A stretch of DNA of 56,894 nucleotides from a virus. A program made the translations under genes and the position numbers. Position 1 is the first letter of the stretch. Each line of letters starts with the position of its first letter. The notes beneath the pieces are model-generated. The model saw only the letters and a list, made by a program, of their open reading frames with translations, was not told where the DNA came from and ran no database searches. The DNA lies in the IMG/VR virus record IMGVR_UViG_3300017598_000808, positions 1 to 56,894 of that record. The stretch is one strand, 5' to 3'. Below, in pieces: positions 3,165 through 53,559 of the stretch.

Positions 3165-3554
3165 CTACCGAATTGGATATCTTAGTTTTAGCCCCACACA
3201 GTCGCCGGCTTTGGTCCCTTTCTTGGGATTGTCTTTTTCAACTATCAGTCTTACAAGAAATTTGATTTCGGGATCCCACCCCATATCGATTAGCGGCGCC
3301 CATTCGTCGGCTAATTTCACGTTATGGGAATTGGGGACATACCCGATCATAATTTTTTTGCCGGTTTTTTTCAGAACGTGATAAATCCGGATTGCGTTTT
3401 TGTCATGCTCGTTGGTGGGCTCGCGCTCGAGCACGAACGTGGCCCCAGGGCCAATATATTTCCGGATCCATTCCATCCGGGAAATTTTCATTCCTTTGTT
3501 TGTATAGTGAGTGCCAGCTACGTTGAAACTTCTATAGTTTCGCATGGCTTTCAA
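3165..3554 (-). CDS. HIRAN-domain protein
   Basis: This 129-residue protein has the HIRAN signature: a beta strand NVAGTHY near residue 10, then the REPTNEHDKNAIRI block around residues 44-57 and IGYVP near 70, followed by LADE. HIRAN domains are known to bind DNA ends or stalled-fork structures, alone or attached to SWI/SNF helicases; stand-alone copies are common in phages and bacteria. Here it lies in the recombination operon, which suits a role in recognising damaged or replicating DNA. It overlaps the 3' end of the HAD-like gene by 23 bp. An alternative ATG lies three codons inside. Confidence 0.75.
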   Translation of the reverse strand: MKAMRNYRSFNVAGTHYTNKGMKISRMEWIRKYIGPGATFVLEREPTNEHDKNAIRIYHVLKKTGKKIMIGYVPNSHNVKLADEWAPLIDMGWDPEIKFLVRLIVEKDNPKKGTKAGDCVGLKLRYPIR

Positions 3555-3937
3555 CCTCCCTTATTTTTTTTAAAGTATCTTGCCAGCTTGTAAATCTAAT
3601 GGCGCGATCGTCGTCGGAATCAACTGTCAAGGTAATGTTTTCCGATAAATGCGGTCGAAAACCAAAGAAGGTATAATCTTTAATATATATAAATGCTTGA
3701 GGTTTTACATTTGTAATTTCAGGTGACCAGCCGCTAAAATGCTCTAATATCCATAACTTTATTTCAGGCAAATTAAACCGAGCGGTAAAGATTACGATTT
3801 TGTATTTTTTCTTTAACTGTGTAATTGCTTTGATTGCACCCGGCATAGGTGGGTCATAGATTGGTCCTTCACCCCACCCTTGAGAATATCGATGAATGAC
3901 ATAATCGAAATCAATCGCTATGGTTTTTTTTGTTCAT
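3532..3937 (-). pseudogene. Broken HAD-superfamily phosphatase-like gene with a foreign in-frame insert
   Basis: From the ATG at 3937 (AAGGA 6 nt upstream on the minus strand) the reading would be MNKKTIAIDFD, the HAD motif I, but the A-tract at 3924-3931 (written as T on the plus strand) holds 8 bases where 7 keep frame. The current frame hits a stop, and the rest is open only from an internal ATG at 3846. Downstream are the HAD-like IVIFTAR segment and a DDRAIRF segment. Between FIYI and DDRAIRF sit 23 foreign codons (3613-3681) nearly identical to part of the late gene at 53866-53952. Motif I also reads DFDY where DFDG is usual. Frameshift and insert together make a functional enzyme unlikely. 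A homopolymer sequencing error could explain the frameshift but not the insert. Confidence 0.8.
3613..3681 (-). repeat. 69-bp inverted, edited copy of part of the late gene at 53866-53952
   Basis: The minus strand here matches 53866-53952 of the plus strand base for base, except for one substitution (G at 3653 against the complement of T53894) and loss of 18 bp. The lost 18 bp are one copy of ATCGG plus the 13 bp between two ATCGG copies in the source. The copy keeps the reading frame of both the source gene and the HAD-like host gene. Confidence 0.93.
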
Positions 3938-4072: not shown

Positions 4073-4798
4073 TTAAAACCAACCCACCATTTCGGCTAGG
4101 CGCTCTAATTTAATGCAATCGTCACAGCCGGAAAGCGCTGTTGGCGGCTCTGCTTGTTCCATGATGATTTTAGCTTTGCCTAAGAGCTTATCGACCATAC
4201 CGGCTTCTTGTTTAATCTTTAGGGTGTGCGCGGAAAACGTCATGTTAAATCCACCGGTGGTATATTTATCGATTGGCCATGTTATATCGGCTTTGTTTGG
4301 CGGACCGGTTATCGGCTCGAAATAAATCAGGTACAGGCCCTCAACGGCACGTTCGCTGAGTGACGCCTGGATCCAGGCATATATGTTGAGTTGCGCGGAA
4401 TACAGTGGCAGCAGCTTGTCTTGAGTTTTTGTGAATTTGGCCGTTTTGTAATCTGGAATGACCAGGGTCCCGTTGATGTTTTCAAAAAGATCATCCATAA
4501 CCCCGGACACTGTGACCCCGGTTGTTCGATCAGTCCGCATAAACCTTGACCAATGAGGGACCTTCAAATATTTTAAGACGTTTTTGAATTCGGGCAGCCA
4601 GGGCGGTGCATGGTTGTAATGATCGAATGAGGCATGAACAATCTTTTTAGTATAGCTGTCTATAGATGAAAAAATACCGGCGAAAATTTGAAAGGGCAGC
4701 GTTTTCGCGCGCTGCCGAATCCAAAAGCAGCGCGGGCAAGCATTAGGCATGTTCAGGGCGCCTAAGGCTTTGGCGCCAATTTTGATTTGATCCGTCAT
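4073..4798 (-). CDS. PD-(D/E)XK nuclease, RecB/Cas4-like, probable Fe-S cluster
   Basis: This 241-residue protein has the RecB/Cas4 layout. An N-terminal CPRCFW motif (near residue 21) and a C-terminal CDDC motif (near residue 225) could hold a four-cysteine iron-sulfur cluster. In the core, GVMDDLF supplies the first acidic residue and IPDYKTA the D-x-K motif (about residues 98-120), followed by a QLNIYAW helix typical of the family. Such proteins are single-strand exonucleases that process DNA ends for recombination or packaging. It lies in the operon with RecT and the SbcC-like ATPase, which supports an end-resection role. Its start is 16 bp after the HNH-AP2 gene. Confidence 0.8.
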   Translation of the reverse strand: MTDQIKIGAKALGALNMPNACPRCFWIRQRAKTLPFQIFAGIFSSIDSYTKKIVHASFDHYNHAPPWLPEFKNVLKYLKVPHWSRFMRTDRTTGVTVSGVMDDLFENINGTLVIPDYKTAKFTKTQDKLLPLYSAQLNIYAWIQASLSERAVEGLYLIYFEPITGPPNKADITWPIDKYTTGGFNMTFSAHTLKIKQEAGMVDKLLGKAKIIMEQAEPPTALSGCDDCIKLERLAEMVGWF

Positions 4799-4813: not shown

Positions 4814-5452
4814 TTAAGTTTGTTTCCAGTATTTTATTTCTGCTTTTTGCCGTGCTGTTTTTGCGTCGGCGAGTGATATAAAATATCCAAGAAATTTATA
4901 TTTTCCGTTTACTCCGATTCCGACTCTAAATTTTCCTTTTTCTTTACCAACTCCTTTCACGCCCGTCGTGTTGCTTTTGTAAATTCTCGAATTCCGTGCC
5001 TGTTGTGTCATAGTAGCCCATCTGCAGTTTTCTTTTTCGTAGTTGCCATTATTATTAATTCGATCCAGCGTTAAACCTTTGGGACGATCTCCCATGTCGG
5101 CAAAAAAGTTTTCAAACCTCATCCATTCCTTGCAGATTTTTATGCCCCTGCCACCATAATATTTGTAATTTGGATGTTTGGGATTCGTACACCGTTGAAT
5201 CATTATGGCCCATGTTATATACACAGGCTTTTCGGAAAGACCATGGGTGGTATGTGACTTTATGAGAAGTTCTTTTCTTAGACAACCACACGATCGTAAA
5301 CGTTTCGCTATTAACCGCCCGCTATATGCTATAATGGTTCGCCCACAATCACACTCACATTTCCACAATGCATTTCTGTTTTTTGCTATTCTTGCAAAAG
5401 CAATAACTTTTAACCTTCCGAATCGTTTATTCGACAGATCCTTTCTCACCAT
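4814..5452 (-). CDS. HNH-type homing endonuclease with AP2 DNA-binding domain
   Basis: This 212-residue free-standing endonuclease has an N-terminal zinc-binding block (CECDCG, then SCGC) near residues 32-57. A central HNH-like region contains YYGGRGI and LDRINNNGNY followed by NCRWAT (about 100-150). The C-terminal AP2/ERF-like segment (about 160-210) has TGVKGV and a KFLGYF strand. This arrangement is typical of selfish homing genes that copy themselves into phage sites. It overlaps the upstream gene by 26 bp and seems wedged between two early genes without disrupting either. Its base composition is AT-richer than its neighbours by eye. Confidence 0.85.
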   Translation of the reverse strand: MVRKDLSNKRFGRLKVIAFARIAKNRNALWKCECDCGRTIIAYSGRLIAKRLRSCGCLRKELLIKSHTTHGLSEKPVYITWAIMIQRCTNPKHPNYKYYGGRGIKICKEWMRFENFFADMGDRPKGLTLDRINNNGNYEKENCRWATMTQQARNSRIYKSNTTGVKGVGKEKGKFRVGIGVNGKYKFLGYFISLADAKTARQKAEIKYWKQT

Positions 5453-7191: not shown

Positions 7192-8208
7192 TTAAAATCC
7201 TGGACCTGGACCATGTTCTTCGGCTTCGGCTAATTCAGCGTCTAATATTTCCTGTTTTTCCGCCGCGGTTAAAGGCTCAAGGGCATCGGGGTCCATTGCT
7301 TTTTCGGGTTCCTGTTCAGGCTCGGGTTTTGTGATTGGCGCGGTTTCTTTTTTGGGTCGCCCGCGTTTCTTTTTTTCAACAGGTTTGATGTCGATCACTT
7401 CGCCGGCATTGGCTTTCTCGTCCACTTCCTCTTGGACTTCGGCTTGCGCGGCCAGATCATCGGTTTTGACAATTGAATTAATCACCAGATTGGAATCCGA
7501 GCTGGATCCGATAATATGTTTGGCCAGGCGATTGGTTACGGTTTTTTTGGCCATTTCCGCGGTGAACTTGCCATGGGTGGTATTGGCCTTGATGGATCCC
7601 GAATCAGTAATGGGTTTCATTTTCGACTGGGACCAGGCGGCTTTGATTTGATCCATGGTCATTAACTCGGTCCGGCTGGCAACCCCTTCTTTGTCGACTG
7701 CGATTGCATAGGCCGCGACAATTTTCCCACCGTCGATATTTTCCAGGGTTTGTTCATGGGATATGATGTTTCGTTGCCCCAGGACGATGTTATAAACAAC
7801 CTTATCATCCTCGTAAACAACCTCAGAATAGATATCCTGTAATTCCGGGTTCACCCGTAAACAGATTGCTTTGTTTCCCAGGTATGAACGCATTAAGGTC
7901 AGGTCTCTACCAAAAACTACAAAATAACATTGGGATTTACTCGGATTTAACCCCTGGATCACCATGTTTAGCAGCGCATTAGCGACTGATGATTTAGTGC
8001 AAACATCGAGGGCTGGACGTTTATCTTTATCAACAACGCTTTGCAGTGTAAGCCAAGCACTTTTAAGTGCGTTGGCCGCGGAGAAATTTGGGGGTAGATC
8101 TAGTTCGTCTTTTTTTTGGAATGTCTGAATCTTTTTTAAAACAAAATCAACCGTCTCCTCTTTAAGTGTCATTAAATCCGATCTTTTTTTAGATTGATTT
8201 TTAGTCAT
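7192..8208 (-). CDS. recT: RecT-family single-strand annealing protein (internal start)
   Basis: From the ATG at 8208, preceded by AAGGAG 8 nt upstream on the minus strand, this gives a protein of about 338 residues. It has the RecT core: ANALKSAWLTLQ near the start, VANALLNMVIQGLNP, QCYFVVFGRDLTLM and GKFTAEMAKKTVTNRLAKHI. The C-terminus is an acidic, Pro/Lys-rich tail with KKKRGRPKK. RecT proteins anneal single strands during phage recombination and replication. The ATPase upstream and nucleases downstream are its likely partners. The same frame continues upstream without a stop into an HNH endonuclease, described separately. Confidence 0.88.
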   Translation of the reverse strand: MTKNQSKKRSDLMTLKEETVDFVLKKIQTFQKKDELDLPPNFSAANALKSAWLTLQSVVDKDKRPALDVCTKSSVANALLNMVIQGLNPSKSQCYFVVFGRDLTLMRSYLGNKAICLRVNPELQDIYSEVVYEDDKVVYNIVLGQRNIISHEQTLENIDGGKIVAAYAIAVDKEGVASRTELMTMDQIKAAWSQSKMKPITDSGSIKANTTHGKFTAEMAKKTVTNRLAKHIIGSSSDSNLVINSIVKTDDLAAQAEVQEEVDEKANAGEVIDIKPVEKKKRGRPKKETAPITKPEPEQEPEKAMDPDALEPLTAAEKQEILDAELAEAEEHGPGPGF

Positions 8209-8691
8209 TTTTAGTCTCCTTGTTCTTTTGTGAAGTGTTTGGTGATAACCCCAATCTTGGCATGCAACCAGATTGGTATTGACATTATTGTCTTTAACCT
8301 CGTCAAAATGATGTACACATTCAGTTTTTTTTAATGGCCGGCCAATAGCCTTTTCAACGATTAATCTATGTTCCTGGATATATTTATTGCTGTTTGACGC
8401 AGGATGATTAGGATAATAAATTAAAATATAACCATGGATATCTTTTTTTCGGCCGTTTTTCCAATTGGGGTTATTGGCCCCCGCCCTGTTACGCCCCCTG
8501 TGGATACTGTTTTCTCTGTTTAAACATCCGCAAGATTTCGTTCGGCCACTATATAGGTTGTAATATTCTACAGTGGACAAATTCCCACAATCGCATTTAC
8601 ACAGGACAAATTTCCTTTTACGATTACCTATAACGCGTTGGGTTAGTTGAAGGACTGTTAATCTTTCAATTTTTTGGTTCTTTTTTATCAT
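7192..8691 (-). CDS. HNH endonuclease fused in frame to RecT
   Basis: The long frame encodes 499 residues. The first 160 form an HNH homing endonuclease: a zinc block CKCDCG and SCGC, an NPNWKNG motif, QEHRLIVEKAIGR, the VHHFDEVKDNN catalytic block and NLVACQD. It runs on through YHQTLHKRTRRLK directly into the RecT initiator methionine at 8208 with no stop codon. The RecT ribosome site AAGGAG is read as codons for the last HNH residues. The endonuclease seems to have landed immediately upstream of recT without its own stop, so the cell may make both RecT alone and an HNH-RecT fusion. A truncated stop from a recent deletion is an alternative. Confidence 0.75.
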   Translation of the reverse strand: MIKKNQKIERLTVLQLTQRVIGNRKRKFVLCKCDCGNLSTVEYYNLYSGRTKSCGCLNRENSIHRGRNRAGANNPNWKNGRKKDIHGYILIYYPNHPASNSNKYIQEHRLIVEKAIGRPLKKTECVHHFDEVKDNNVNTNLVACQDWGYHQTLHKRTRRLKMTKNQSKKRSDLMTLKEETVDFVLKKIQTFQKKDELDLPPNFSAANALKSAWLTLQSVVDKDKRPALDVCTKSSVANALLNMVIQGLNPSKSQCYFVVFGRDLTLMRSYLGNKAICLRVNPELQDIYSEVVYEDDKVVYNIVLGQRNIISHEQTLENIDGGKIVAAYAIAVDKEGVASRTELMTMDQIKAAWSQSKMKPITDSGSIKANTTHGKFTAEMAKKTVTNRLAKHIIGSSSDSNLVINSIVKTDDLAAQAEVQEEVDEKANAGEVIDIKPVEKKKRGRPKKETAPITKPEPEQEPEKAMDPDALEPLTAAEKQEILDAELAEAEEHGPGPGF

Positions 8692-8694
8692 TTT

Positions 8695-10689
8695 TTAGTC
8701 GTTTTCGACCCTGAGTGATTTGTCAGATTTACTAACAAATAATCTGATTTGTTGGGCTTCGGTTTCAAATAAACGGGTAACCGCTTCCGAATTATCGATA
8801 AAACAAGGCAGCGATATCCCATAGTATTCAGAAAGGGTGTTGCAGATATCCAGGCCGATATTGATCCGAGCGCCGTTATTCATGGAATTATATGGCACCC
8901 CTTCAAAGGTGGTGTCACAGCATTCTTCCAGGCCGCCGTTGATGTTTTCGACAAACAGCCTAAAAGAGGCGTGTAAAAACTTTTGGTTAATCTTTATTTC
9001 AAGCATATCCACTTTGGTTCGAATGAAGGTTTCAATAATAAAAAGCTCGGATTCAAGTTTTTCATATTCAGCCGCCAGGGCGCGTTCATTTTCTTTGTGT
9101 TTTATTATGCGTTTATCAATTCGTAGATTGGCTTCGATTTGTAGCTGGTTTCTTTCAAAAAGAGAAATCATCGTTTTAATTCTATCCAGGTCACCTTCCG
9201 CGGCCAAAAGGGTTTCGTAAGTGCCGGCACGCAGCCCATTAATATCCAACCCAATGACATCTTCTTGGGATATTAAATCGTCTAAAATCAAATCCGGGGG
9301 AAGGGTGATATTGGCCTTTTCGTGACGTGCTTTACAATCATCTTCTTGGGCTTCGGCTACGTCCTGGATTTCAGCCCGTTTTTTGATTTCCACATCCATA
9401 GCAACAATCATTTCATTGATAGCGGTGATATCTTTTATAAGCGTGTTTAGTTTCAAAGTTGTTTTTTTGCCCTTTTCGGATATGGCGGTCAGGTCCTTTG
9501 CTTTTGATTGGTTGAAGGCTTCCAGCGCCAGGCGCGAGGCTTCTTCAATTTTATCAGCTGGTAGTTTTTGACCACAGGCAGGGCACGTATTGGATCCGGG
9601 GGGAAGGGGTGTGAATTCTTTTTCGTTGATTTTAAACCAGGATCTACGAAGTTGCTTTTGGGTAAGCTCGAGTTCGGCAACGTCCTCTGACAATTCCTTT
9701 TTTCTTTTTATTTTGTCGGTTTGTCTAATAACGATCTGTTCGGTTGCGCGGGCAGCTTCGATTGAAGCATCTTCAAATCTTGCGCGTTCTTTTCGTTGGC
9801 TTGCCAACCGATCGTTTTTTTGAACTTCCATTGCATTTTTATAGGCTAAAATCTCGGCTTGTTTTTCATATAATTCTATTTCTTTTTCCGCGATCCCGCC
9901 GCCGCTGTTTGTATTGGCGATTACCTTTTCAGCCTTTTCTTTTCTGATTGTGTACAGTTTAAGTTTTTCATTAATTTCTTTCAATGAATCAGCGACTTCA
10001 ATTTTCGATTCATTGGCCTCATTTATTCGTACCGGAATTTTTTCCAGTTCTTTGTTGATTTTAGCGCGACGGGCAGCGATTATTTTCTTTTGATCATCAA
10101 TTTTATGATCACCCAAGATATTAGGTAGGGTATCCAAAGCGCTGTTTGTCGCGATCACATCCGCGTCAGGGATATCACCACACACTTGCAATAAAAGAGC
10201 CCGGCGCTTAGTCCAGTGCAAAACCTCATTGAAATAGCGGGGGTTGGTTAAAAGTTTGAAATTTTCTTCATTGCAAATCGCATCAACCGCGAAGCCAAAT
10301 TCTTTCTGTTTACAAGGGACCCCGTTTACCTGATGATCGACCGTGTGACCAGTGAATGTTTTTTGCGCTTCGCCGCGCCGTTTTGTGTATTTTTCCAAGT
10401 AGGTTTTTTTTAACGTTATTTCGCTTTGCCCGGTATCCAAAACAGCTTCAACCGAATATTCTAGTCCGTGGACTACCGCACCGTTTTTTGTAAGAGTTTT
10501 TATTTCAAAAACAGCGCTGTTTAGCGAGTCCTTGCCGAACAACAGCCATGAAAAGGCATCGAAGACAGTTGTCTTGCCAGTGGCATTGTCGCCGTAAATT
10601 GAAATTCCATTATTAAAGTTGGCAATTTCAAATGATGGAATACCTTTAAAGTTTAACAGTTTAAGCGATTTAATTTTAATTTTAGACAT
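8695..10689 (-). CDS. SbcC/Rad50-like ATPase with zinc-hook motif
   Basis: From the ATG at 10689 this is 664 residues. The Walker A GDNATGKT lies at 33-40 after a LNFKGI strand typical of SMC/RecF/SbcC heads. Long coiled-coil arms follow, with a CPAC zinc-hook motif at 369-372 in the middle, then the returning coil and C-terminal head with FIDNSEAV as the likely Walker B region. It is shorter than cellular SbcC but like phage versions. It is first in the leftward operon and just upstream of recT, which suits a DNA-end tethering or processing ATPase. The frame extends further upstream, but that part crosses the promoter and is not protein-like. Confidence 0.83.
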   Translation of the reverse strand: MSKIKIKSLKLLNFKGIPSFEIANFNNGISIYGDNATGKTTVFDAFSWLLFGKDSLNSAVFEIKTLTKNGAVVHGLEYSVEAVLDTGQSEITLKKTYLEKYTKRRGEAQKTFTGHTVDHQVNGVPCKQKEFGFAVDAICNEENFKLLTNPRYFNEVLHWTKRRALLLQVCGDIPDADVIATNSALDTLPNILGDHKIDDQKKIIAARRAKINKELEKIPVRINEANESKIEVADSLKEINEKLKLYTIRKEKAEKVIANTNSGGGIAEKEIELYEKQAEILAYKNAMEVQKNDRLASQRKERARFEDASIEAARATEQIVIRQTDKIKRKKELSEDVAELELTQKQLRRSWFKINEKEFTPLPPGSNTCPACGQKLPADKIEEASRLALEAFNQSKAKDLTAISEKGKKTTLKLNTLIKDITAINEMIVAMDVEIKKRAEIQDVAEAQEDDCKARHEKANITLPPDLILDDLISQEDVIGLDINGLRAGTYETLLAAEGDLDRIKTMISLFERNQLQIEANLRIDKRIIKHKENERALAAEYEKLESELFIIETFIRTKVDMLEIKINQKFLHASFRLFVENINGGLEECCDTTFEGVPYNSMNNGARINIGLDICNTLSEYYGISLPCFIDNSEAVTRLFETEAQQIRLFVSKSDKSLRVEND

Positions 10690-10741
10690 AATGAATAACA
10701 GCTCCTGGGTTATGAAAATTAAAGAAATAGCGTTGAGCCGA

Positions 10742-10770
10742 ATTATATAGAACAAAATAATATATGTCAA
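10742..10770 (-). promoter_or_regulatory. Leftward early promoter, perfect sigma-70 consensus
   Basis: On the minus strand TTGACA (10770-10765) and TATAAT (10747-10742) are separated by exactly 17 bp. It lies 53 bp before the first codon of the ATPase gene and would drive the whole leftward operon. GTTCTATA (10753-10746) overlaps the -10 box and recurs at the divergent promoter. Confidence 0.85.
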
Positions 10771-10800
10771 TAAAAAGAATAAAAATCTTTGTAAAAAACA

Positions 10801-10830
10801 TTGACAACCGAGAGATCGAAGTTCTATAGT
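10801..10830 (+). promoter_or_regulatory. Rightward early promoter
   Basis: TTGACA at 10801-10806 and TATAGT at 10825-10830 with an 18-bp spacer. The GTTCTATA motif at 10821-10828 overlaps the -10 box, mirroring the one at the leftward promoter, and is a candidate operator site. The expected start of transcription falls at or next to the ATG at 10837. Confidence 0.7.
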
Positions 10831-10836
10831 AAGTGC

Positions 10837-11040
10837 ATGGAAAATATAAAAATGAGAGAATTGGCAGAAATGGTGGGTTGTCATATTGATACGTTATTTC
10901 GGATCAAAGGTCGGCGGAATAATCCGTCAATTTCACTGGCAAAAAAATTAGAGGAAATGACCGGAATAGATCGAAGACGCTGGTTATATCCGGACGAATT
11001 TGGGGATCCTTGGGTGATATTATACAAAAAACACGAATAA
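10837..11040 (+). CDS. Small HTH regulator, probably translated from a leaderless mRNA
   Basis: This 67-residue protein consists of one helix-turn-helix domain: MRELAEMVGCHIDTLFRIKGRR gives the first helices and turn, and SLAKKLEEMTGIDRRRWL the rest, in the Cro/CI or YdaS style. It lacks any dimerisation or cleavage domain. The ATG begins only 6 nt after the -10 box and has no ribosome site, so the message is probably leaderless, as for lambda cI from PRM. It sits at the fork between the divergent early promoters and likely regulates both. An internal ATG at 10852 also lacks a ribosome site. Confidence 0.75.
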   Translation: MENIKMRELAEMVGCHIDTLFRIKGRRNNPSISLAKKLEEMTGIDRRRWLYPDEFGDPWVILYKKHE

Positions 11041-15663: not shown

Positions 15664-16035
15664 ATGTCTATTTTCACCAAAGACGATGAGGCGAGTTTGG
15701 CCAATTTGGCCGAAGGCGCCGCGATTGAAATTTTCAACCTGGAACTTGCCGAGACCTTGAAAAACATTGCCGATCCGAATCGGAAACGGAAATTTAAGCG
15801 CGAAATCCATTTGATTGCCAAGTTGGAACCAGCCGACGCAGCCGGTGTGATCACGTTAACGATTGAAAGCAAGCTGAAATTAGCAACGCGTAATGTGGTG
15901 ACAACGACACTAATGTATGGCAAGGATCCGTTGACCGGCAGAATTGAAGCTCGCGAGCTTGAAAGCCGGCAGCGGGACTTGCCTGGCTTTGAGGATAAAA
16001 GGGACCTTGCCGAAAAAGACAAATTTGACGCTTAG
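15664..16035 (+). CDS. Early phage protein of the 'replication terminator-like' type
   Basis: This 123-residue protein has LAETLKNIADPNRKRKFKRE followed by a strand-rich core (IHLIAKLEPADAAGVITLTIESKLKLA) and an acidic C-terminus. The pattern, a short helix, NIADPNT-like motif and paired strands, is seen in small phage proteins sometimes labelled replication terminator protein, with no proven function. AAAGGAG lies 9 nt before the ATG. It ends the early rightward operon. Confidence 0.6.
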   Translation: MSIFTKDDEASLANLAEGAAIEIFNLELAETLKNIADPNRKRKFKREIHLIAKLEPADAAGVITLTIESKLKLATRNVVTTTLMYGKDPLTGRIEARELESRQRDLPGFEDKRDLAEKDKFDA

Positions 16036-35158: not shown

Positions 35159-35325
35159 AAAAGTATCCGCCAGGGGATGTCACGAAGCCATGGAAACGGC
35201 AATTTTACGAAACAAGATCGATTGGCCCTGAACCGCCGCTAAACGCTAAAGGATTCTGGATCCGGCCAAAGCACGGCATAAAAAGGAAAACAAAAAATGA
35301 TCGTTCTAACAACAATGGCAAATGA
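35143..35325 (+). CDS. Small basic protein
   Basis: This 60-residue protein is rich in Lys, Arg and Pro, with GPEPPLNAKGFWIRPKHG in the middle, and overlaps the tail gene by 16 bp and the next gene by 29 bp. No signal or membrane segment. Function unknown. Confidence 0.5.
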   Translation: MDRKVKKYPPGDVTKPWKRQFYETRSIGPEPPLNAKGFWIRPKHGIKRKTKNDRSNNNGK

Positions 35326-35635
35326 GCAAAGCGTCTATTGGGTTACCACAGGTTTTTTAGACGAGGATAATAATGCCATGGCGCCGGATGTTGCGACCTG
35401 GACGTTGACCGATTTGAAAGGCAATCTCATTAATTCCAGGGAAGATGTTTCCATTGTTACCCCTGAAACTTCGGAAACAATTGAGCTGTCCGGCGATGAT
35501 TTAGTCGTGGACGGTAATGATATCGTTCAGCGGATTTTGACCCTGGAAGGGACTTATACTTCGGTTAATTACGGCGCCAGCAAGCCGTTTAAGTTTCAAA
35601 TCAAATTTCCAATTGAACCTATCGTAATTGTATAA
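35297..35635 (+). CDS. Virion-region beta-rich protein
   Basis: From the ATG at 35297 (AAAAGGA about 9 nt upstream) this is 112 residues, nearly all strands, with QSVYWVTTGFLDEDNNAM, VATWTLTDLKGNLI and KPFKFQIKF. Such single beta-sandwich proteins in tail regions are often fibre attachment or decoration units. An internal ATG at 35315 is also possible. Confidence 0.5.
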   Translation: MIVLTTMANEQSVYWVTTGFLDEDNNAMAPDVATWTLTDLKGNLINSREDVSIVTPETSETIELSGDDLVVDGNDIVQRILTLEGTYTSVNYGASKPFKFQIKFPIEPIVIV

Positions 35636-35645
35636 AGAGTAAACT

Positions 35646-36749
35646 ATGGCCTGGTTAAGTGGTTGGGCAGCAGAACAGAGAATTGAGCTTGTAATTGATA
35701 ACACCAAAATCGATGGGGCTTTGACAAACTTTCCGGTTATGGTGAAACTATCATCATCTTCGGGCATTGACAGTTCTGATATTTCTCAGGTTTTTGATGA
35801 GCTTGCCTCAGATGCCAATCGGCTTAAAATAGCAGTCACCGAAGATGACGAAGTAACAGAATGTAAGGTCGAAATTGAACACTGGGACGATGCCAGTGAG
35901 CTTGCAATTTTGCATGTTAAGGTCCCGGCCGTGGCTTCGGGCGCTGATACCACTTTATATCTTTATTACGATTCGGCCCATGCTGACAATACGACCAATG
36001 TGGGGGATATTGGGGATGCACCGGCGCAAGCTGTTTGGGATTCTGATTTCGACAGAGTTCTGCACATGTATGATGGCACCACGCTTAAAAATTCGGCTGA
36101 TGGTACCACGGAAACGCTTGCAGGATCTCTTACGCTGGTAGACGGTCCGAACGGGAATAAGGCCTTACAGGCGAACGCGGACGGAGATTACATAGATTGC
36201 GCTTCATATGCTTTTACGAGCCTTTTTACGGTTGAAGCCCAATTTTATATTGATACTGGAGGACCTGACCCCGGGTATGATCAGCTTTTTGGATTTAATC
36301 ATAAAATTACCCTTATGGTGGACCACACGAACGGTACAACCAAATGGGGGTTATATACCGGGAATGGAAGTAGTTGGGATGCTTTAGTTCCAGCGAATAC
36401 GCTTTTGGGCGAATCAACTTGGTACAATATAGCGTTAACATACAATGCTGGAACTCATGGTTGCTTTTTAAATGGGGCGGACGATGGTGGGGGTTCAGGG
36501 ACTAACAGAACGATAACGACCCCTTTTCATGTTTTTAGAAGGGAGAATGCTGCAAGTGGTGATTATCGGCTTCATGGTAAGATTTCTGAATTTCGAATTA
36601 GCACGGTAGAACGATCCGATGCCTGGGTTAAAGCCACCTATCACTCTTTGTTTGACAGTTTGATAACGCTGACAGACGAATATCCGCCGGAAGGGTCCGG
36701 GACAATACCAATAGTGATGCACCATTATACTAAAAACATAGGAGCGTAA
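35646..36749 (+). CDS. DUF2341 plus LamG/concanavalin-like virion protein
   Basis: This 367-residue protein has a DUF2341-like domain at its start (QRIELVIDNTKIDGALTNFPVMVKL, with DTTLYLYYDS near 100), followed by a LamG/concanavalin-like jelly roll (LFTVEAQFYIDTGG, TWYNIALTYNAG and KISEFRIS, about 190-340). This pair is common in exported or virion proteins that bind sugars. Here it has no signal peptide and lies in the tail gene run, so it is a likely receptor-binding or fibre component. Confidence 0.72.
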   Translation: MAWLSGWAAEQRIELVIDNTKIDGALTNFPVMVKLSSSSGIDSSDISQVFDELASDANRLKIAVTEDDEVTECKVEIEHWDDASELAILHVKVPAVASGADTTLYLYYDSAHADNTTNVGDIGDAPAQAVWDSDFDRVLHMYDGTTLKNSADGTTETLAGSLTLVDGPNGNKALQANADGDYIDCASYAFTSLFTVEAQFYIDTGGPDPGYDQLFGFNHKITLMVDHTNGTTKWGLYTGNGSSWDALVPANTLLGESTWYNIALTYNAGTHGCFLNGADDGGGSGTNRTITTPFHVFRRENAASGDYRLHGKISEFRISTVERSDAWVKATYHSLFDSLITLTDEYPPEGSGTIPIVMHHYTKNIGA

Positions 36750-40452: not shown

Positions 40453-41502
40453 ATGCCAAAATTAAGAGAAGCGTTAAAACAAACATCCGGGGTTGATACG
40501 GGAGGAAATGAATTCACCCTAACTGAAACTGATATCCAGCCGTATATCGATAATCCGGAAATGGCACAAATGGAGGCCGATGTTAGCCAGGCGCGATATG
40601 GGGGAACCCCTATCCAAGGTTCTGAATTATCCCGTGATCAAATGTTAGGAAGGGATCCAAAGTTTCAGGATCCTGCATTAAACGCGGGAAGGCCTCCAGC
40701 GGATCTATCCCGGCGTGGTGATTTTGAGAATTCGGTATTCAAGCAACTGCAAAGCGAGAACATGCCCGATGGTAATCCGTTTAATTTCAATACCACAGCT
40801 TCTTTGAACGCTATATCGAAAACGGATTTACCGGAATTGTTTACCAGTGTTTTCCAAAACCAGGTTACCTGGCAGGACCGGCACTTGTTAGACGATGATC
40901 AAAAAAAATTCTGGATGAGTGAGGTTAAGCGCTACCGGGCTCACTTGGGATCTTCTTTGACCGCCGAAAGAGAAACCGCGGTCAATGCCTATAACCAAAT
41001 GATGAATCAGTTTGATAACGCGGCTAAAGAACAGGCAGCGGCCGGGAAGCTTAAAAGACAAAAGGCCAAAGATCTTAGCACGGCCATGACAGAGGCGAGT
41101 GAGCGAAAATCTAAAAAACAAACATTAGAGCAAGCCAATCTTAAACGCCGTACACAGCTTCTCACCGATGAACGCAAATTAACCCAAGCAGTTTTTGAAG
41201 CCACGATCAACAATACGTTGACCGATGCAGAATCAAAAGCATTTGCCAAAGAGTTGAAAGGAATGCGAGCAGAGCGCCAGGTCATTGAGGCTGAATTGAA
41301 AACAAAAGAAATCTCGAAGCCGAGGTCATCGGTAACCGATGTTTCGACTGATACTGGAGAAGAAGGCAGCAAGTCCCCTACCGTAGTTCGAAAGAAAGTA
41401 CCATCAGGGCAAAAAACCATTGTAAAAACCGGCAAATACAAAGGCCGCAAGGTTGTTAAATATAGTGACGGGAGTATGGCATATGCCGACGAAATTAAGT
41501 GA
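40453..41502 (+). CDS. Internal virion-like protein with long helices
   Basis: This 349-residue protein has a polar N-terminal half and a long Gln/Lys/Ala-rich helical segment (about 170-280, with ERKSKKQTLEQANLKRR). The end, KKVPSGQKTIVKTGKYKGRKVVKYSDGSMAY, is a small basic strand domain. It ends inside the giant gene's start by 20 bp, so the two are translated together. It is probably an ejection protein partner. Confidence 0.5.
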   Translation: MPKLREALKQTSGVDTGGNEFTLTETDIQPYIDNPEMAQMEADVSQARYGGTPIQGSELSRDQMLGRDPKFQDPALNAGRPPADLSRRGDFENSVFKQLQSENMPDGNPFNFNTTASLNAISKTDLPELFTSVFQNQVTWQDRHLLDDDQKKFWMSEVKRYRAHLGSSLTAERETAVNAYNQMMNQFDNAAKEQAAAGKLKRQKAKDLSTAMTEASERKSKKQTLEQANLKRRTQLLTDERKLTQAVFEATINNTLTDAESKAFAKELKGMRAERQVIEAELKTKEISKPRSSVTDVSTDTGEEGSKSPTVVRKKVPSGQKTIVKTGKYKGRKVVKYSDGSMAYADEIK

Positions 41503-44500
41503 GATAGATCCAGGCGCCATTGAATGGGAAGCCGGTCCGGATATCAACGTGATATCCGAAGATCAGGTCCAGTGGGATTTAAAACCGGAAACGGCAGGGG
41601 TTGAAGACCAACCCGGCCAGGTCACGCAAATCCCAAAGTTTGATGCCGGTACCGGGGACCAGGCCGAAGCCTATGATCCGGACGATATTTGGAGTGATCC
41701 TTCTTTCACCGGCCAGAAACCACCGGTAGACGAAGGCCCTTCGTTTATTCAGAAATATTTGCCCGCATTTACAACGACCATGGGTGGCCCTATTGCAGAA
41801 AGTTTGTTTCATGCAGCGGCCGGGACGGAACCATACCGGCCAGCGGACGCCGATCCGGGCGCTTTCGAGCCGGTCAAGGCTTTGGTAGAAGGCCATAAGG
41901 GATTGGCCAGGGCAACCGGTAGAGCAATCGAAATGCTTACCCGCGACCAGACCGATACCCCGGATGTTACTCAATACGACTTGGAAGATCCGATTGATCG
42001 ATCAAAGTATTATGTCGATATGATGAAATCGGATTATGAAGGATCAACCAATGCAGTGTTGAACCCCATCGCTGAAAAGATTGCGGAATTAGAGCGGTTA
42101 CAACCCGACACTGAATATTACAACCGTCTTTCAACAAAACCTAAGTTCACCAAGTACATGGAAGAAGTCGTCGGCATGGCGTCGCAGATGGCAAGCCAGG
42201 TGGCGGCATTTATGACCACCGGAGGTGTTTCCAGCGGTATTTGGATGGCCATGCAGATTGCCAGCAGCGAATACGATGGATTGATCGCGGAAGGTGTCGA
42301 TCCCGAGCGGGCGCGAACAGCGGCATGGGGATCCTCGATGAGCCAGGCGCCTCTTGAAATGCTGTCTTTGGGCTTCATGTTAAATAACCCTATCACCCGA
42401 AAACTGATTAAAGGCGCTTTGTTAAAGTTCGGACTTGATAGGGTTATGGGCGGCGCAACCGAATGGATTACGGAAACCGTTCAACAGGTACCATCGAAAT
42501 TTTGGGAAAATTGGGCGCAGGATCCGGATTACATCGCCAAACTACAGGAAAACCCCGAATTAATAAACACCCTGGTTTCCCAGGGACTTCGTGAAGGTGT
42601 TCCCCAGGGCAACGTAGCCGCTTTTTATGGCGCTATTTTGGGCGGCACAGGCGCACCACGCGTACCAAAGGCCAGAAAGGACCCAGTGGCCGGGGAAAAG
42701 ATAGATCCGGCCGTGGAAGAAGTCCTCCAGGGCCTCAGCGATGATTTTAAGGCCGGGGTATTGACCGCCGAAGATGTCGAGTCTATGCGGAAAAATATAG
42801 ATCCGTCACATCCGCTTTACACCCGGTTGGGGGAATTGGCCGGAATACCAGCTGAAACACCGGCCGGTGAACCTACCGAGGTTCCGGGCGCAGAGAGGGC
42901 CATAGCAGGTGAGCGCTTACCCGCTTTGGAAAAATTAATATCTGAAAGCCTTGAAGAAGGCGCCGAGGTTGAAGCTGTTCGAGTGGATCCCGAAAAAAAG
43001 AACGTTCATTCGGTTGTCAAAATCGCAAAGGCCCTGGGGCTTGATATAACCGTTTACAAGGGCAAAGGTAAAATCGATGGGCTTAATGGATTGGTGGATA
43101 CGGAAACCGGTCAGATATATTTGAATGAAACGGCCAGTGATCCCTATATAACCGTTTTAGGGCACGAATCATTGCACCGGCTAAAAAGAGATCACTCGGA
43201 TCTGTATGACACCCTGGTTGGCAAGGTCAAAGAGTTGGATATCGATATCACCGATTATCTTGATACGGCCAACAAGGCTCGTAAAGTGGCCGGCGTGGCT
43301 GAAATGACAGCCGACGAGGCGCTTTCCACCGAGGAATTTATAGCTGATTTTGTCGGCCAGCAGTTTACAAAAAAAGACTTCTGGCAAAAACTTAACAAAG
43401 AAAACCCGACTTTAGGAAAACAATTAGCTCAAATCGTAAAAGACTTGGTTGAAGCAATCAAAACCGCCATGAGAAAGGGCAAAAGTATCGATGCTGCTTT
43501 CTTCAAACAAATGAATGATGCCCAAGACGCCCTTGCCGGTGTGTATGGTGAATTTGCCCGTCGAGAAACCCAGGTTACGGATAAGACCATCGAAAAGCCG
43601 GCCGAAGTAAAAAAGCCGATGACCGCCGAGCAGAAAGCAGCGCGAGCCGCGGAAATGCCCCTGCAGGTGGAATTCGATCACATCGTTAAGGGTCTTAGCA
43701 CGGATGCCAAAAAAGCTGCAGCTGATATCATCGCCGACACTGAAACGCCGATCAAAGAGCGCCTGGCTATAATCAAATCCATTGCTTCCGGCCGTGGGAT
43801 CCCGAAGCCTGCCAAGGGTGATCGCCGCGAAAAGGCGCGGCCAGGAGCGGCCGAGCGCAGGCAAGAAGGGTTGGAAACACGCGAGCCCCCGGCCTGGGAC
43901 AAAGAGTTTCGCAAGATCTATGTCAATGCGAAAAATATGGATGAAGCCAAGTTTATCGAAGCAGGTAAAGCCCTGTTGGAGAAACGGCCGGCCGGACTTA
44001 TGGACCTGGCCAAGCGTATGGGCACCACCATCGAGGCGGACACGGATCTTGATGAGGCCCTAAAGACAATTCACGCTCGCATTTTAGCAGGTATGCAGCC
44101 CAGGAAAAAAGCCAGCGAAATGACCGAGGACGAATTACGCGAGGCTTCGAACACTGATTATCTAACCGGGTTAAGAAATAAACAAGCCTTTGATCTGGAA
44201 GACACCAGAAAAGCGCATGTGTCATCAATCGACCTGGACAGCCTTAAATATATCAATGACAATTTTGGCCACCAGGCCGGCGATGCCATGCTCATCAATT
44301 TTGGCAATGCGCTGAAGACCATTACCGAGGCGGACACGTATCACGTTTCAGGCGATGAGTTTATCGTCCAATCAGATGACGCCGCTCAACTCGAAGAACT
44401 ACTAAACAAACGTGTAGTGGAGTTCCTAAACAAAAACCCCTTGACCGTCATCACCGCGGACGGTCAAAAAATTCAATATGAGGTACAATTTAGCCATGGC

Positions 44501-47500
44501 ACAGCGAAAACAGTTACCAAAGCCGAAGAAAGACTCCACACGGACAAGGCGCAACGTGAAGCTGCAGGTAAAAGAGCCGGACGGGGCGAAATCCCTCCAG
44601 GAATTTCTAAGGGACTTGCCGAAGGGCAGCGCACTGGAGATCAACGGGAAACAGTACCCGAAAAAGTAACCCCCGAGCAGGAATATGATGCCCTGGTTGG
44701 CGGACTGACAGCCGCGCAGAAAAAAGATAAGGCCATTAAAAATGTGGTTGGCGATACCACCTCCGCGGTTAGCCAGCGTTTGGGGATCCTTAAAAACGCA
44801 ATCGCCGCATACGACAAGAAAAATCCGCCTAAAATTAAGAAGCGGTCAACGGCCGGCGCCAATGTCCGCACCTTCAGGGGCGCCATCTTAGCAGCGGGCG
44901 GTATCAAGTGGGGCGATCAATTCAAGGGCGAACGTAAAACAATGGCGGAAAACAGCCCCGGCGCGATGTATCTGACCCGTCAAAAAACCGGTATGCCCTG
45001 GGACACCTTAGAGCAGCAGTTAAAAGACGATGGTTGGTTGGGACCGGATGAAGTCTTGCTGGACGTGCTTAATGATCCATCGGTTTTAAAACGCGGCCGA
45101 GTTGCCGGGGACCTGATGGAAAAAAAGGCCGATCACCTTACCGAGCAGGAAAAAGAAGCCAAGGCGGAAATTATACACGAAGCCGAGGAGCCGCCGCCAG
45201 GTGATTATCAAACGATGGAAGCTGAAGATCTGCCCATGGGCAAGAAGCTGACTTTAATCGAGGGCGAATCCACCCGCGGTTGGGATGTTTACGAGGTCAT
45301 CGAAAAGGATCCGTTCGGCGTGACCTTGAAAGACGGTATGACGATTGAACTTAGTCCTAATGATAAGGTTCAGGTTAGGCGACAGGATTTGGCAGCAAGT
45401 GTTAAATCCTTGACAAAACCCAAGGAAAAACATAGAATAAAAGACCGTAAAAAATTGAAGCAAGAAATAACCGATGAAGATCTTGAAATTTCCGACACCG
45501 AAAAAGCCAAGTTCAGCCCGAAGTTCAAAAAACCCGGGCAGATGGAATTGCCCATTTTCAAAGGCCAGCAGTTTGAATTCGACTTCGGCGACAAAGGCAT
45601 TACAGTCAAACACGAAAAGCCCGAAGCTAAACCAGTGGCTTCAAAAGCGACTAAACCAAAGGCGAAAAAGAAACCTGATAAGTTTGACGTACAGGCTCGC
45701 GCTCAAAAAGTCCGAATGGCAACCACCGGCTGGCTCGGATCCGCCGGCCGGGTGGTTAGGAACCTGGACGAGGCAGCGTCCTTACTTGCCCCTATCCGAA
45801 AGTCCGCCCAAGAACAACTCTACGTCGTAGCCACTGACGCAAACGGGTTGGTTTTAGAAATCCACAAGTACAGCAAAGGAATTAAATCCAGCGCACCCTT
45901 TCAGGGCAATGAAGCTGTTGGTCGTCTCTTAAATACCGAAGGCGCTAAAACTGCATATTTTATCCACAACCATCCGAGCACCTCAATCACCGCAAGTCCC
46001 GAAGATATCAGTACATTTAAATATCTAAATGAAGCTACCAGTATAGCTGGAATCAAGGTTTCCGGATTGGTTATTTCCGGGACATCCTATGTTGATCTGC
46101 AAACCGGCGCGTCTAAAAAAATCCAACCTATATCCCGGACCATGAAATTGCCGGTCAAAGAGCGGTACCTTAACCGGTTGGCGGGTTTTAAAGCCATCAG
46201 CTCTGTTAATAATAGTGCTTTAGCTCGCGATTATCTGGCAAGTGTTCATAACAATGCCGAGGGTTTTCTTTTTCTTGACGGGGGATTGAAACCTGTTGGT
46301 TTTGTGCCCATGCAGCCGACCAACACGAAAGAACTCACCACGGCATTGATCAAAACCGCCGAGGATTTGAACGCCAGTGGTTATCTTTTCAATTCAACGC
46401 AGCGAATTGACTCGGTACCAGGAAGATCTGAATTTTTACGTTCCTTCACCCGACAATTCGGTGATACACTTCAATTATTTGAAATTCTCGAAGAAGGAAT
46501 TTCACACGCTGATGCCGGTACATTAAGTAAATATAAACAAGCATCGAAGGGCGTGTCCCCGGGGTTGGCAAAACTGGGCACTAAGGATCCGGTTTTTTCG
46601 GTTAAAGCGAGAGAACAGGCGCTTTTTTCGATCAAAACAAAGCGCCGCTGGCACGAACCCATCAAAAAATATGTGGCCTACACCAGGGACAACCCGGAAG
46701 CCACTCGCGATGAAATTCAAACAGCCACAGGATTAAGCGAATACCAGGTTGAAAATCTACAAGAGCTTGAAAAAAGCCAGGCTTACCAGCAAGCTTTGTT
46801 TTCGGTTAAGTCCCCTGGGTTTTACTCGAAAATGGAAAAGACCCTGGAAGCCAAGTTGCAAGGCAAGGGCACCCCTGCCCAATATCAAGCAACCATCGAT
46901 GCCCTGGTTAAAAAAGGCGCGTTTAAATCCGAGGAGCTTGAATGGTCCGGATTAGACGAATGGCTTGCGGACCAGGGGGCGGCCAAGATTAAAAAACAAG
47001 CCGTCATGAATTGGTTACAGGCCAACAATTTAGAAGTGCGTGAGGTTAGTTATAAATCCCGTCAGTCAAGCGATGACACCATGCAGGAAGGGTATATAAA
47101 TTGGCCACAAGAAGTCGGCACCGCCGATGAATACGAGGCTACGTGGACAAACCCTCTGGACCCAAAAGAATATAAATTTGAGGCGGAAAAAGCAAAAGAT
47201 GATACCTGGACATTATTTATTGAAGGCAGCCCGGAAATAAAGGACGTATTCGGATCGGCAATGTTTTTCAAGGATGAACAAACAATGCGGAACTTTGCCA
47301 GTGATTATGCGAATGATCTTTTCGAAGATTCAATTGACGAGGCCGCAAAAATTGATTGGATCGAAGTAGAGGGCGGTAAGGGTTCCACGTGGAACGGTAC
47401 CAATCGGAATCCGATAACCGGGGAAATGGGTAACTGGAAGATTGAAAAAGAAGGCGAAGACGTGGGTTCGGTCTATTATGTTATAACTCAAGACGGTGAC

Positions 47501-50500
47501 CATTGGGATGATACAACGGGATCTTTGCCCGAAGCAAAAAATTATATTGAGCAACGCTTAGCAGACGCTATCCGGGAAGAAATCGACATGGGAGGCGGTA
47601 TGGATTATGCCGAACCGTCTAAAGATGAACCCAGGCATGATACCTGGCAGCTTCCCATGGGGAAAAACTATCAGGAACTTTTATTGACGTTGCCACCAGA
47701 CATTAAAGCTGAACGTGCGGCCAGGGACAAACGATTAAAAGAACTGATTGTAAACAAGGAAGCATTAGAAAAAGATCTTGATAAAGCGGACGAATCTGTT
47801 TCTTTGAAACATGTACAAACTTTAAAGCGCGAAATAGGAAATCTTAAACGTCAGATTGATATGGTAATGCGAGAGTCCGATACTGAAGCAACGCGAACCG
47901 CTTTCCGAGGCGCTCACTGGGAGGAACCCAACGTTGTTGCCCATGTCCGCTTCAATGACCGCACCGACGCCGAGGGACGTAAGGTTCTGTTTATAGAAGA
48001 AATCCAGAGCGATTGGCACCAGGCGGGGCGCAAAATAGGGTATATTGGCGGTGAAACAGTCTTCAGGATTAAATATGCGAACGGTGATGTTTATAACACA
48101 TTCGATACGAAAAAGCAGGCCGAGGATGTCACAAAAAAATTAAACGCGGATGAATCCTGGGGGAAGTTGCAGGGCGGTTTTCATGTCGTCAAGGAGATAG
48201 AAAACCAAAAAGGCGTACCTGACGCACCATTCAAAAAAACCTGGCCAATGCTGGCATTCAAGCGCATGGTGCGGTATGCCGCTGAAGGCGGTTACGACAC
48301 CATTTCATGGACACCGGGCGAGGTTCAGACAGAGCGGTATGATTTGAGTGAGCAGGTTTATGAGGTTCAGTGGCACTCCGACACCAAGCAGTTTATGGCA
48401 TGGAAAAACAAGGACGATGTTGAACCGGCCATATCAAAGGGAGACGTAACAGAGAAAAATCTTGAAGACTATGTTGGCAAAGAAATAGCACAAAGGCTAA
48501 TTGACAAGCGAGATGCTGGTGATGCGACCCCCGTTTTAAACGGCCTTGACCTCAAAGTCGGTGGCGAGCCCATGCGGGTTTTTTATGATGAAAAAGTAAA
48601 AAACATGGTCAACAACTTTTTCAACAAAAAGGCCTGGGGTTATTCTCACGTCGAATCAGGGCACACGGTTGTCAATAAAAATATCAGCGAAGAAATAACT
48701 TCAAAGCTTTTAAGCGCAGCATCAAGAAAAGCCCATAAAGAAGGCGACCATGCGGCTTCCAGGTGGCTAAGTGATCAAGCCAGGGGATTGGAAGTCGGCA
48801 AGGGTTACAGTATGGCCGTATTTAATCCCAATCCATGGCCGGGCGCCGACAAGCCGCCATCTTATTATGTCGATGCCGTCCGCAAGGCCGAGGATAAATA
48901 TCAGCAAATGTGGACGTTGCCGATTACCACCCAAATGCGTGACAAGGCCATGGGCGAAGGCATGCCTTTATTTTCGGTTAAAAGGGCGACGAACGCACCC
49001 ACGGCCGTTGATTTGTCGACGGCGGATTACCGGGTTGTATTTTCACCTAAAATCGATCACCCGGGTTATGAACAGGCGGAAATATTCAATACGGCTAATC
49101 CTGGAAACGATATCAAATTTGACGGGGAATGGGACCGGTCCGCGATTGACATGGACCCTATGTATCAATTTACCGCACGTGAGGGCGATGCAACCGGAGT
49201 AACGTTTACGACTGAAACCTTAGATACAGAGGAAATTTCCACAAAATTCTACAAGCTTGCCACCCCGTTTATTGAAAACAAAGCGGCAATGTCGGTAAAG
49301 GACCGGATTGACCCGATCACGCAAACGTACATCGATGCACTCCAGGCAGCGCAGCCGGATGCTTTCTTTACGTCCCCGGACATTGATTCCGATCCCACCA
49401 CAGGATTGCCCAAAGAGGTGGCAACCGCCCTGGAAGCTTCCAAGGGCCTGGGGCGCCTATCATTTTTCGAAAAGTTTGGCGATACCTTAAAAGATATCTG
49501 GCATAGCAGTACCCGGCATCGACCGTATTTGGATCCGAAAGAATATTCTGATATCGCTAATGTTTTGCGAATTTATCAGGAAGTTCCAAGCAACAGCGCC
49601 AGGCGTGCTGGTCAGGCCTTGTCTGCAATTATGGGGAATCTGAAACCAAACCAGTACAAGGTGTTTGCCCATAAGTTGCTGATGGACGATATGGCCAAAG
49701 ACGTTGAAAGCGGATTGCTCAAAGATCCGAATAATTTACCGTTTGGGTTTAACATTAAAACCGCTCGCGAATATTTGGCCCGGTTAAACAAGATTGCTGA
49801 AAGAGATCCGGTTATCGCAGATGCCCTTGAACGCCGTACCTTGTTCAACAACAAATTAAAACGGGCTTTGGTAGATGCCAAGTTATTGCCTGAATCCGTC
49901 ATGGAAGATGAGCGCTATTTTCATCACCAAGTATTACAGTACCGAGCGGTCAGAGAAATCGGCAGCGATTATTATCCAGGCATCGGTGTATCATCAAAAG
50001 ATGTACGGTTGAAAAAGAAAGGGTGGCAGCGCGGCCGGATAGGATCTTCCAAGGACTATAATTCGGATTACGCTGAATCTGAATTTGAGGTTATCGCTCA
50101 GGCGATTTCACAGCTTGATACCAAATACACCATGGGGCGAATTCAAGATTTAGCAGATATTATGCCGGCCCTAAAGACTCAAGCAAAGTCAATGAATCTG
50201 CATCAGCTATATGTCAATGAGGCTGAGCGTTTGACCGCCCAGGGTACAAGCGGCAAGAAATGGACCGCTGCCATGGTCCAGGAAGAAGCCGATCCGCTCT
50301 CCCCCTTCAAGGCCGAGGTCGCCAAAGGCCTAAGCTGGATTGGCAATATGGCCAAAAAGGGCAAGCTGGAAAACGGGTCCAGGGATTTTACTGATGTTAT
50401 CGAAGCCCTGGAAGAATGGCAGCGCGAAGTTTTAGACGAAAAGGCGCGAGCCAAAGACGATATGCGGGACCCGGTCCCGATCCCGTTCCCTTTTGATGAG

Positions 50501-53500
50501 CTGGGATCCAGGGCATGGGCATATTTCAACCACATGATGTCTGAAAATCTGGAAGGCGCTCCGGCAGCCGGCATAATATTTAGGGCAATCCGGCAGCGAA
50601 ACGAATTTATCAAGGAATACCTGGGGCGCGATTTTAAAAAGCCGACCGATATTATGCCTGATGATCATGTTATCTGGAAACCGGCACCGGGGACTTCCTG
50701 GTACAAAGCCTATTCATTGTCTGATCGAATTGTGGATGCAGTTCAGGCAGGGGAAATGGTGATCGGGGAAGAAAATGCAGACAAGATCAAGCAAATTTTG
50801 GCGCGCGGCCGAGATGTCGAATGGATTGTCCCTACCGATGTCGCCAAAACTTTAGACGGTTATGACGTGAAGTTGGAAGATCATATGATTTCAGTGGCAT
50901 CGCGTAAAATGATGACTGGCTGGAAACAATGGATCTTGATCAACCCGTATCGCGTAATTAAATACAATGTGAACAACATGTCCGGCGACTTGGATATTGC
51001 GCTGGCATATGATCCGAAAATCGTTTTCAAGTATATGGCCGGGGCCACCCGGGACGTTTATAAAGACTGGAAAAGAAAAAAGATTTCGCCAGAACTTCAA
51101 AAAGAAATCGATCTTGCTCATTCCCTGGGGGTGGTCGGATCCGGTTGGTCGGTTCAGGAAGTGGCGGACGTGACCCGAGAATTGGCCTACGATAAACACA
51201 TGCAAGCGATCACCGGTGAAAAGCCTAACCTTATCAAACAGGGGTGGCGAGGATTGCAGGGTTTTACCAATTACCGGGAAAACATTTTAAGGTTAGCCGC
51301 TTTCAGGTATTTCCAGGACCGGATAGCAGCTGGAGATAAAAATATTTATGCAGCATCGAACAAGGCCGAAATCGATGGTATTAAGGACAATACCGAAAAG
51401 GCCGCGAAATTAGCCCGGGAACTCATTGGAGATTATGGTAATATTACCCATTCCGGCCAATGGCTCCGTCGTCACTTAATTCCGTTTTATTGTGTCCCTG
51501 AAGATACGGAGATTTTGACACGTGAAGGATGGAAGCGACACGAAAGTCTTAATACTGGTGAAAAGGTTTTGACATACAATCTTAAAACTCGTTGCACAGA
51601 ATGGCAAAAAGTTCAAAATAAAGCTGTGTTTCCATTCGATGATGAACTTATTACTATAAAAAACAAATGGGGATTTAAATATCAGTTTACCGAAGATCAC
51701 CGTATGGTAGTCATTGAAAAATATAAAGATCAACGTAAAATTGTTTTAGCCAAAGACTTAAAATCACATCAACACTTACCGATTGTTGCCCCACACGACT
51801 TTGTTGAAAAAAGTATTCTAAACGAAACAGAGTCTTCTTTGCTCGGATGGCTTGTCACCGATGGATATTTTAGAACAAGAAAATATTCACCTAATTCATT
51901 TGAAGCTATGCTTTACCAAAAAAAGCCTGATAGAGTCGAAATGATAAGGGAAAAATTTTCAGATTATATATCATCTGAAAGTGTGCATCCCGAAACCGGT
52001 GTTATCTGTTTTCGTTTAAAGGCCGGAGAACTTGGCGCGATTAGAAACGTATTTAAATTAAAAGATGATTTGCCGGCTATTGTTACTCGTCTCGGAGAAA
52101 AAGAATGTCAGGCGATGTATGAGGCGATGATTTCCGCTGAGGGAACGAAAGTCAATGGATTTGTAGCGTTTACTCAAAACGAAGGCCCTGTTCTCGATGC
52201 GTTCCAAATTCTTTGTTACATTCTTGGGAAGGCTGGCCATATCAGACCTAAGAAAGCTAACGGGAAATTTTCAAAGATAGAAGACCATAAAAGCATCTAT
52301 GTTAAAAAACGCGATAGAGTTCAACTTTTCAAATGGGAAATTGGCCGCGAATGTTATAAGGGTCAAGTGTGGTGTCCCAAAACACCAAACGGAACTTGGG
52401 TTATGCGCCAAGACGGTAAAGTTATGATAACGGGAAATTCTTGGCTGGAGGTCAATGCCCCCAGGTACGTTCGGTTAATGAGAAACCTTAAACATGAGGG
52501 CCAGGGCGCCAGAAAGATTGGCCGGGCGCTTCCCCTGGTCGGTGCGAACGTTGCCTGGAAGGGATCCAAGTTGGCCGCAAAGGCCACCGCCATCTATGTA
52601 TTGGCCAATGTTTGGAATCGAACGTTCTTCCCGGACGAGGACGATGAATTGGGCGAGGCGCAGCGCCGGCAGTTACATATTATCTTTGGCCGCCGTGAGG
52701 ATGGTTCAGTTGTTTCATTACGGTTCCAGGGTGCGCTTTCTGATGCTTTAGCATGGTTTGGTGGCGAGGACCTTCACAAGGATATTGCGGACGTCATAAG
52801 CAAGAAAGCCACATTCGGTGAAAAGGTCAAGGAAGCCGCCCTGGCACCGATTATCAAAATTATTTCCGGGATTCGTCCCGATATCAAGGCCGGTGCGGAA
52901 ACGCTGTCAGGAACGTCTTTTTGGCCGGACCCGTTTAACCCTAGGCCCATTTATGACAAGCTGGAACATGTCACCCGGTTGTTTTCGTTAAATGGCGCTT
53001 ACGGTTGGTTGGTCGGAAAACCCAAGCGCGGGGACACTACAGGCGAGCGGTTGTTAAATGACTTAATGGCTTTGGGTTTTTACAATTCGGATCCAGGGGA
53101 ATCCGCGTATTACGATATCAAATCGAAAACCTTTGATTATTTGAGAAAGACCGGAATGGAACGGCCGAGCATATCACCGACAAATAAAAGCAAGGCACTT
53201 TATTATTACAAACAAAGCTTGAAATATGGGGATTTGAAAGCCGCCGAAAAGTACTTGGGTAAATATTACAAGTTAGGCGGGACTAGTACCGGGATCACAA
53301 GTTCGTTAAGACGCAGCGCCCCTTTGGGTTCGCTGGCCAAGAAAGATCATCGAAAGTTTTTGGCAACCTTAAATGAGGATGAAAAAGAGCGGTATCAATT
53401 AGCCTTACGCTGGTACCGGGACACGTATCAGAAACGTAGACAGAAGGTATCAATCCCACCACGCGGCGGGCAGCCGGCAGTTGACCGCGATCAACCTGGA

Positions 53501-53545: not shown

Positions 53546-53559
53546 TGGAGGTCAAAAAA

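Follow-up and report, generated by a model that had tools for sequence, protein, structure and literature searches.

A HAD-like phosphatase gene of the virus record IMGVR_UViG_3300017598_000808, whose whole stretch of 56,894 nucleotides was analyzed here (hereafter the window), carries a short reversed copy of a late-gene segment, and a recent, one-off templated insertion from that distant late gene is its likely origin. Positions 3613-3681 (minus strand) equal positions 53866-53952 (plus strand) save for one base and 18 bp missing between two ATCGG repeats, and the coordinates and orientation put forward in the original prediction were borne out. The pair was recovered by self-BLAST of the genome (E 1.4e-16) and by a genome search (E 1.3e-18), and contains exact inverted stretches of 34 and 28 bp, the former being the longest dispersed inverted exact match in the window. 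By comparison, dispersed inverted exact matches peaked at 14-19 bp in 30 composition-preserving resamplings and never exceeded 19 bp. Chance similarity was rejected. The single mismatch is a T in the late gene that is C in the copy, changing Leu to Pro. The copied segment has identical phase at the two loci (late gene, KDYTFFGFRLHLSAAPTTSENITLTVDSD; HAD gene, KDYTFFGFRPHLSENITLTVDSD, 23 aa), an agreement that we estimate would be kept without selection with a chance of ~1/9. Two other relationships between the loci were considered and rejected: antisense RNA between the late and HAD genes, as the copied segment has the same sense in both, and a circular genome bringing the loci closer together, as the window has no end repeat and a near-identical sister contig runs past the window end.

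The acceptor gene (3532-3937, minus strand) holds the insert between the strand FIYI and the motif IV DD, such that 23 extra residues separate FIYI from DDRAIRF while all native residues are present. Elsewhere, the hydrophobic strand runs straight into DD: 159 of 160 viral HAD homologs from IMG/VR (a set holding 137 distinct sequences) have no insertion at this site, including one (L177) with DN where the others have DD, and the strand is likewise joined directly to DD in Gordonia phage Nithya, Rhizobium phage RHph_TM61, and Microcystis phage Mwe-JY25. These homologs rule against a segment naturally present in HAD proteins, and the alignment with related phages that had been proposed as a way to recover the ancestral gene thus indicates that the HAD gene received the copy. 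An empty site in close relatives of the window lineage was sought in viral, genome, and plasmid collections, with none recovered, which counts against the templated insertion. The late gene (53545-54051, plus strand) is structural-type, of unknown function and phrog_9998-like, with its residues 34-141 matching positions 44-153 of the profile in a match of nearly equal length that spans the copied segment. The donor segment is still in place at 53866-53952 and is identical, as the long allele, in the sister contig (IMGVR_UViG_3300017527_000470). Because HAD homologs lack the segment, whereas in the late gene it lies inside the phrog_9998 match and is shared with the sister contig, sequence comparison shows that the late gene is the donor and the HAD-like gene the recipient.

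The junctions of the 69-bp insert are blunt. Microhomology is 0 bp on both sides, no target-site duplication was found at the junctions, and a check of them for marks of end joining (microhomology, micro-deletion, added bases) found none. Both junctions sit exactly between codons, at the motif boundary, with no HAD codon lost relative to the homologs. At 69 bp the insert encodes neither an endonuclease nor a self-splicing RNA, and Rfam introns in the window are likewise none. Blunt junctions and a retained donor would be expected of a templated patch or a switch of template, the route that we favor. In such an event, a break or stalled fork would have arisen at the HAD motif-IV sequence, and a short strand made on the late gene as template would have served as a patch, or the template would have been switched. 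The polymerase may have slipped from one ATCGG repeat to the other, dropping 18 bp, with one base changing; slippage had been suggested at the outset and we judge it a reasonable reading of the loss. Two early-operon recombination proteins, RecT and the SbcC-like one, are plausible helpers. Against a patched break, neither junction has microhomology or extra bases, which often mark such repairs.

The differences between copy and donor could also mean that the template came from elsewhere, namely from a related co-infecting phage with a homologous late gene whose allele already had C and was 18 bp shorter, in which case neither slippage nor substitution would have occurred during copying. Phages recombine, and the copy and the local allele do differ in two places, but IMG/VR and phage records yielded no such allele, the allele of the sister contig is the long one, and slippage between the ATCGG repeats simply explains the 18-bp loss. 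We therefore regard a co-infecting donor as quite improbable.

The state of the acceptor gene bears on whether the insert does anything. The HAD-like motifs DxD (motif I) and DD (motif IV) are present, with D2, D4, D102, and D103 invariant, but the assembled start codon does not read into motif I: an A8 run at 3924-3931 puts the ATG at 3935-3937 in a different frame from the HAD reading, and the frame of the ATG leads to an early stop. In addition, the glycine of DFDG, near-invariant among 41 sequences, is a tyrosine here (DFDY). The original prediction had frame kept in both genes, which stands for the copied segment itself, read in the same phase on either side, and falls short for the genes as assembled, given the out-of-frame ATG and a TAA at 54049-54051 in the donor, where the sister contig has AAA and beyond which the donor frame runs 28 codons to the next stop. 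As the frameshift at the A8 run accompanies the loss of a near-invariant glycine, the HAD gene is probably decaying; otherwise the region holds an error. AlphaFold2, run with 41 sequences, modeled the HAD core with high confidence and gave insert residues 86-100 a pLDDT <50, so that the insert is predicted to form a floppy loop bulging out directly before the catalytic DD. That modeled core, together with a kept frame and no stop, would suit a useful domain addition maintained by selection. We consider this most improbable, however, as the ATG is out of frame, the DFDG glycine is lost, the insertion falls directly ahead of the invariant DD, and no homolog has such a loop. Most likely, the insert does nothing by itself, and it either inactivated the HAD gene or landed in one already decaying.

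A second dispersed inverted pair was found in the same genome: 26 bp, exact by self-match, at 15755-15780 and 47248-47273 (both given on the plus strand). The former lies inside the conserved NIxDPN of a phrog_997 gene and, because the N, I, D, and N of this motif are invariant, is the native side; it follows that the reversed copy is in the 4030-aa gene, where it is identical in the sister contig. Although 26 bp is not a multiple of three, the 4030-aa frame is open, and the copy at 47248 would therefore have to be a replacement, since a plain 26-bp insertion would not fit; this counts against the favored reading. Homologs of the 4030-aa gene around 47248 were found in the sister contig only. 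This gene (41453-53545) has GGDEF and RadC-like domains.

Such pairs were rare in the comparison set. In 27 control phage sequences (1.31 Mb; contigs with a HAD homolog plus three phage records, hence not a random sample), we found one marginal dispersed inverted match (E 9.6e-5), compared with two dispersed matches in the window genome, both inverted. Dispersed direct repeats were common in the controls, and it is for inverted dispersed copies that the controls reject ordinary repetitiveness of phage genomes as an explanation. The marginal match (E 1e-4) belongs to Microcystis phage Mwe-JY07 (L094, 470-533 versus 45394-45454).

These controls also bear on whether the insert is an artefact of library preparation or assembly, in which a chimeric amplification fragment in a low-coverage contig put a late-gene scrap into the HAD gene. 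In favor of this, one assembled sequence alone spans the junction, with sequence searches returning no independent copy and the sister contig stopping short, and the A8-run frameshift could be a sequencing error. The sister contig is near-identical over window positions 16223-56894, and it therefore provides no test of the insert junction. Over the shared 40.7 kb, however, it agrees with the window with no indels and with one difference outside a 0.8-kb patch, which speaks against an artefact. Further, a plain join of existing sequence would not explain the substitution and the 18-bp loss that set the copy apart from its donor, each junction falls exactly on a codon boundary at the edge of the motif with phase kept, and nothing comparable occurs in controls of this data type. 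An artefact is accordingly unlikely, and the insertion is probably real. The 0.8-kb patch (35175-35969) holds 39 of the 40 differences between the contigs, mostly transitions, includes the start of a gene at 35646-36749 with DUF2341 and lectin-like domains, and looks like a recombined allele.

The genes around the acceptor suggest what could have triggered the templated insertion. The HAD gene stands at the end of an early minus-strand set that encodes SbcC-like, HNH-RecT, metallo-beta-lactamase-fold, HNH, and PD-(D/E)XK-like proteins. Its end is overlapped by a HIRAN-domain gene (3165-3554, minus), and beyond its start lie a PD-(D/E)XK nuclease-like gene (4073-4798, minus; below the Pfam gathering score), an HNH endonuclease gene (phrog_374; 4814-5452, minus) ~1.1 kb from the insert, a single open frame with an HNH endonuclease domain and a RecT annealing protein (7192-8691, minus), and an SbcC-like ATPase of the palindrome-specific endonuclease type (8695-10884, minus). 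An apparent internal ribosome site with an ATG precedes RecT within 7192-8691. On the other side, 607-2832 encodes a 741-aa PAS/histidine kinase/response regulator hybrid, a bacterial-type sensor adjoining the phage genes that may mark the host side of a prophage border or else be cargo.

The one exception among the 160 homologs (L030) has an in-frame LAGLIDADG endonuclease at the same HAD motif (AYI...IYI|DDRAVRF). Its HAD-like gene (L030 positions 1926-2480) is split in frame at the motif-IV site by this LAGLIDADG-type endonuclease, with a left border that is not clean (GKWNCRFRGDW after AYI), a point against the favored reading; an intron at this site was sought by Rfam match and by eye for splice borders, and neither gave a result. 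Given a site that encodes catalytic residues, a pair of HNH genes less than 5 kb away, and the LAGLIDADG endonuclease that this homolog carries there, cleavage by a homing endonuclease would be a plausible trigger, attractive but unproven. Taken further, the HAD motif IV might be a cutting site for phage mobile endonucleases, with the insert the fossil scar of a patched break and the 15755/47248 pair a second scar; we hold this broader reading to be rather doubtful.

A different source of the patch was raised by the original prediction, which noted a diversity-generating retroelement (DGR) and suggested that its reverse transcriptase (RT) had possibly done the copying. The DGR is real, with its RT 2.8 kb downstream of the donor: by self-match, a variable repeat (VR; 56343-56458, plus) lies in a tail-protein gene (55098-56462) and a template repeat (TR; 56503-56618, plus) follows, then an RT-17 RNA (56644-56729) and the first part of an RT gene that runs off the window. 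A 26-bp perfect palindrome lies inside the TR (56573-56598). Between TR and VR, 19 of 20 differences fall at TR adenines, and 19 of the 29 TR adenines are changed. The copy at 3613-3681 has 0 of its 19 sense adenines changed, its sole substitution being at a sense T; at the TR/VR rate of 19/29, this would occur with a chance of ~2e-9, presuming that the RT mutates any foreign template as it does the TR, and reading the antisense as template gives 1 of 25 changed (P ~1e-10). Self-BLAST of the donor and target loci against TR or VR gave no match, and the second inverted pair (15755/47248) involves neither locus. DGR retrohoming was thus rejected on the adenine pattern and the missing TR/VR relation, and the DGR route for the copy is not supported. 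The wider proposal is that this RT, or another, copied late-gene mRNA and the cDNA served as the patch. It draws on the DGR nearby, a donor that is likely transcribed, and reverse-transcribed patches known at human-cell breaks (PMC5110952), but with mutagenic homing largely refuted by the adenine test, and with neither locus resembling TR or VR, we consider it very improbable.

Taken together, the event is unusual, one-off, and probably real, and would represent a known kind of mutation in a phage setting; our search of the open literature found no clear description of a distant templated insertion in a phage. If real, it would mean that phage replication or repair can put short reversed in-frame gene pieces into other genes, and that such insertions are a source of both new protein loops and gene death that ordinary mosaicism studies miss. 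How frequent they are could be measured by screening for short, dispersed inverted matches.

Among known systems, templated sequence insertions at double-strand breaks are established in human cells (PMC5110952), and the class 2 insertions described there resemble the phage case in being short copies of a distant locus, with the donor intact and no target-site duplication. Those arise by end joining in human cells, whereas here the junctions are blunt and the break is a postulated one. In yeast, distant templated insertions are captured at HO breaks (PMC11724301), and these are alike in that an endonuclease break takes up copies of sequence from any part of the genome; they differ in that the cut was induced and the junctions often have microhomology, while the yeast distant inverted class consists of one locus copied twice, in opposite orientations, in contrast to our single copy. 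Short-range template-switch mutations (PMC7954356) likewise produce a reversed copy by polymerase template switching, but locally, whereas the phage template lies 50 kb away in the contig. The DGR is alike in being present near the donor, and unlike in that the copy has neither adenine mutagenesis nor a TR/VR relation. Finally, a review of T4 mobile elements (PMC2988022) reports illegitimate break repair, and also that active-site residues are often encoded where homing endonucleases have their sites. Our insert has no endonuclease in its 69 bp, and cleavage here is hypothetical, but the likeness extends to an active-site-coding target, to the common free-standing endonucleases and illegitimate repair of T4-like phages, and to the endonuclease found at this very motif in L030.
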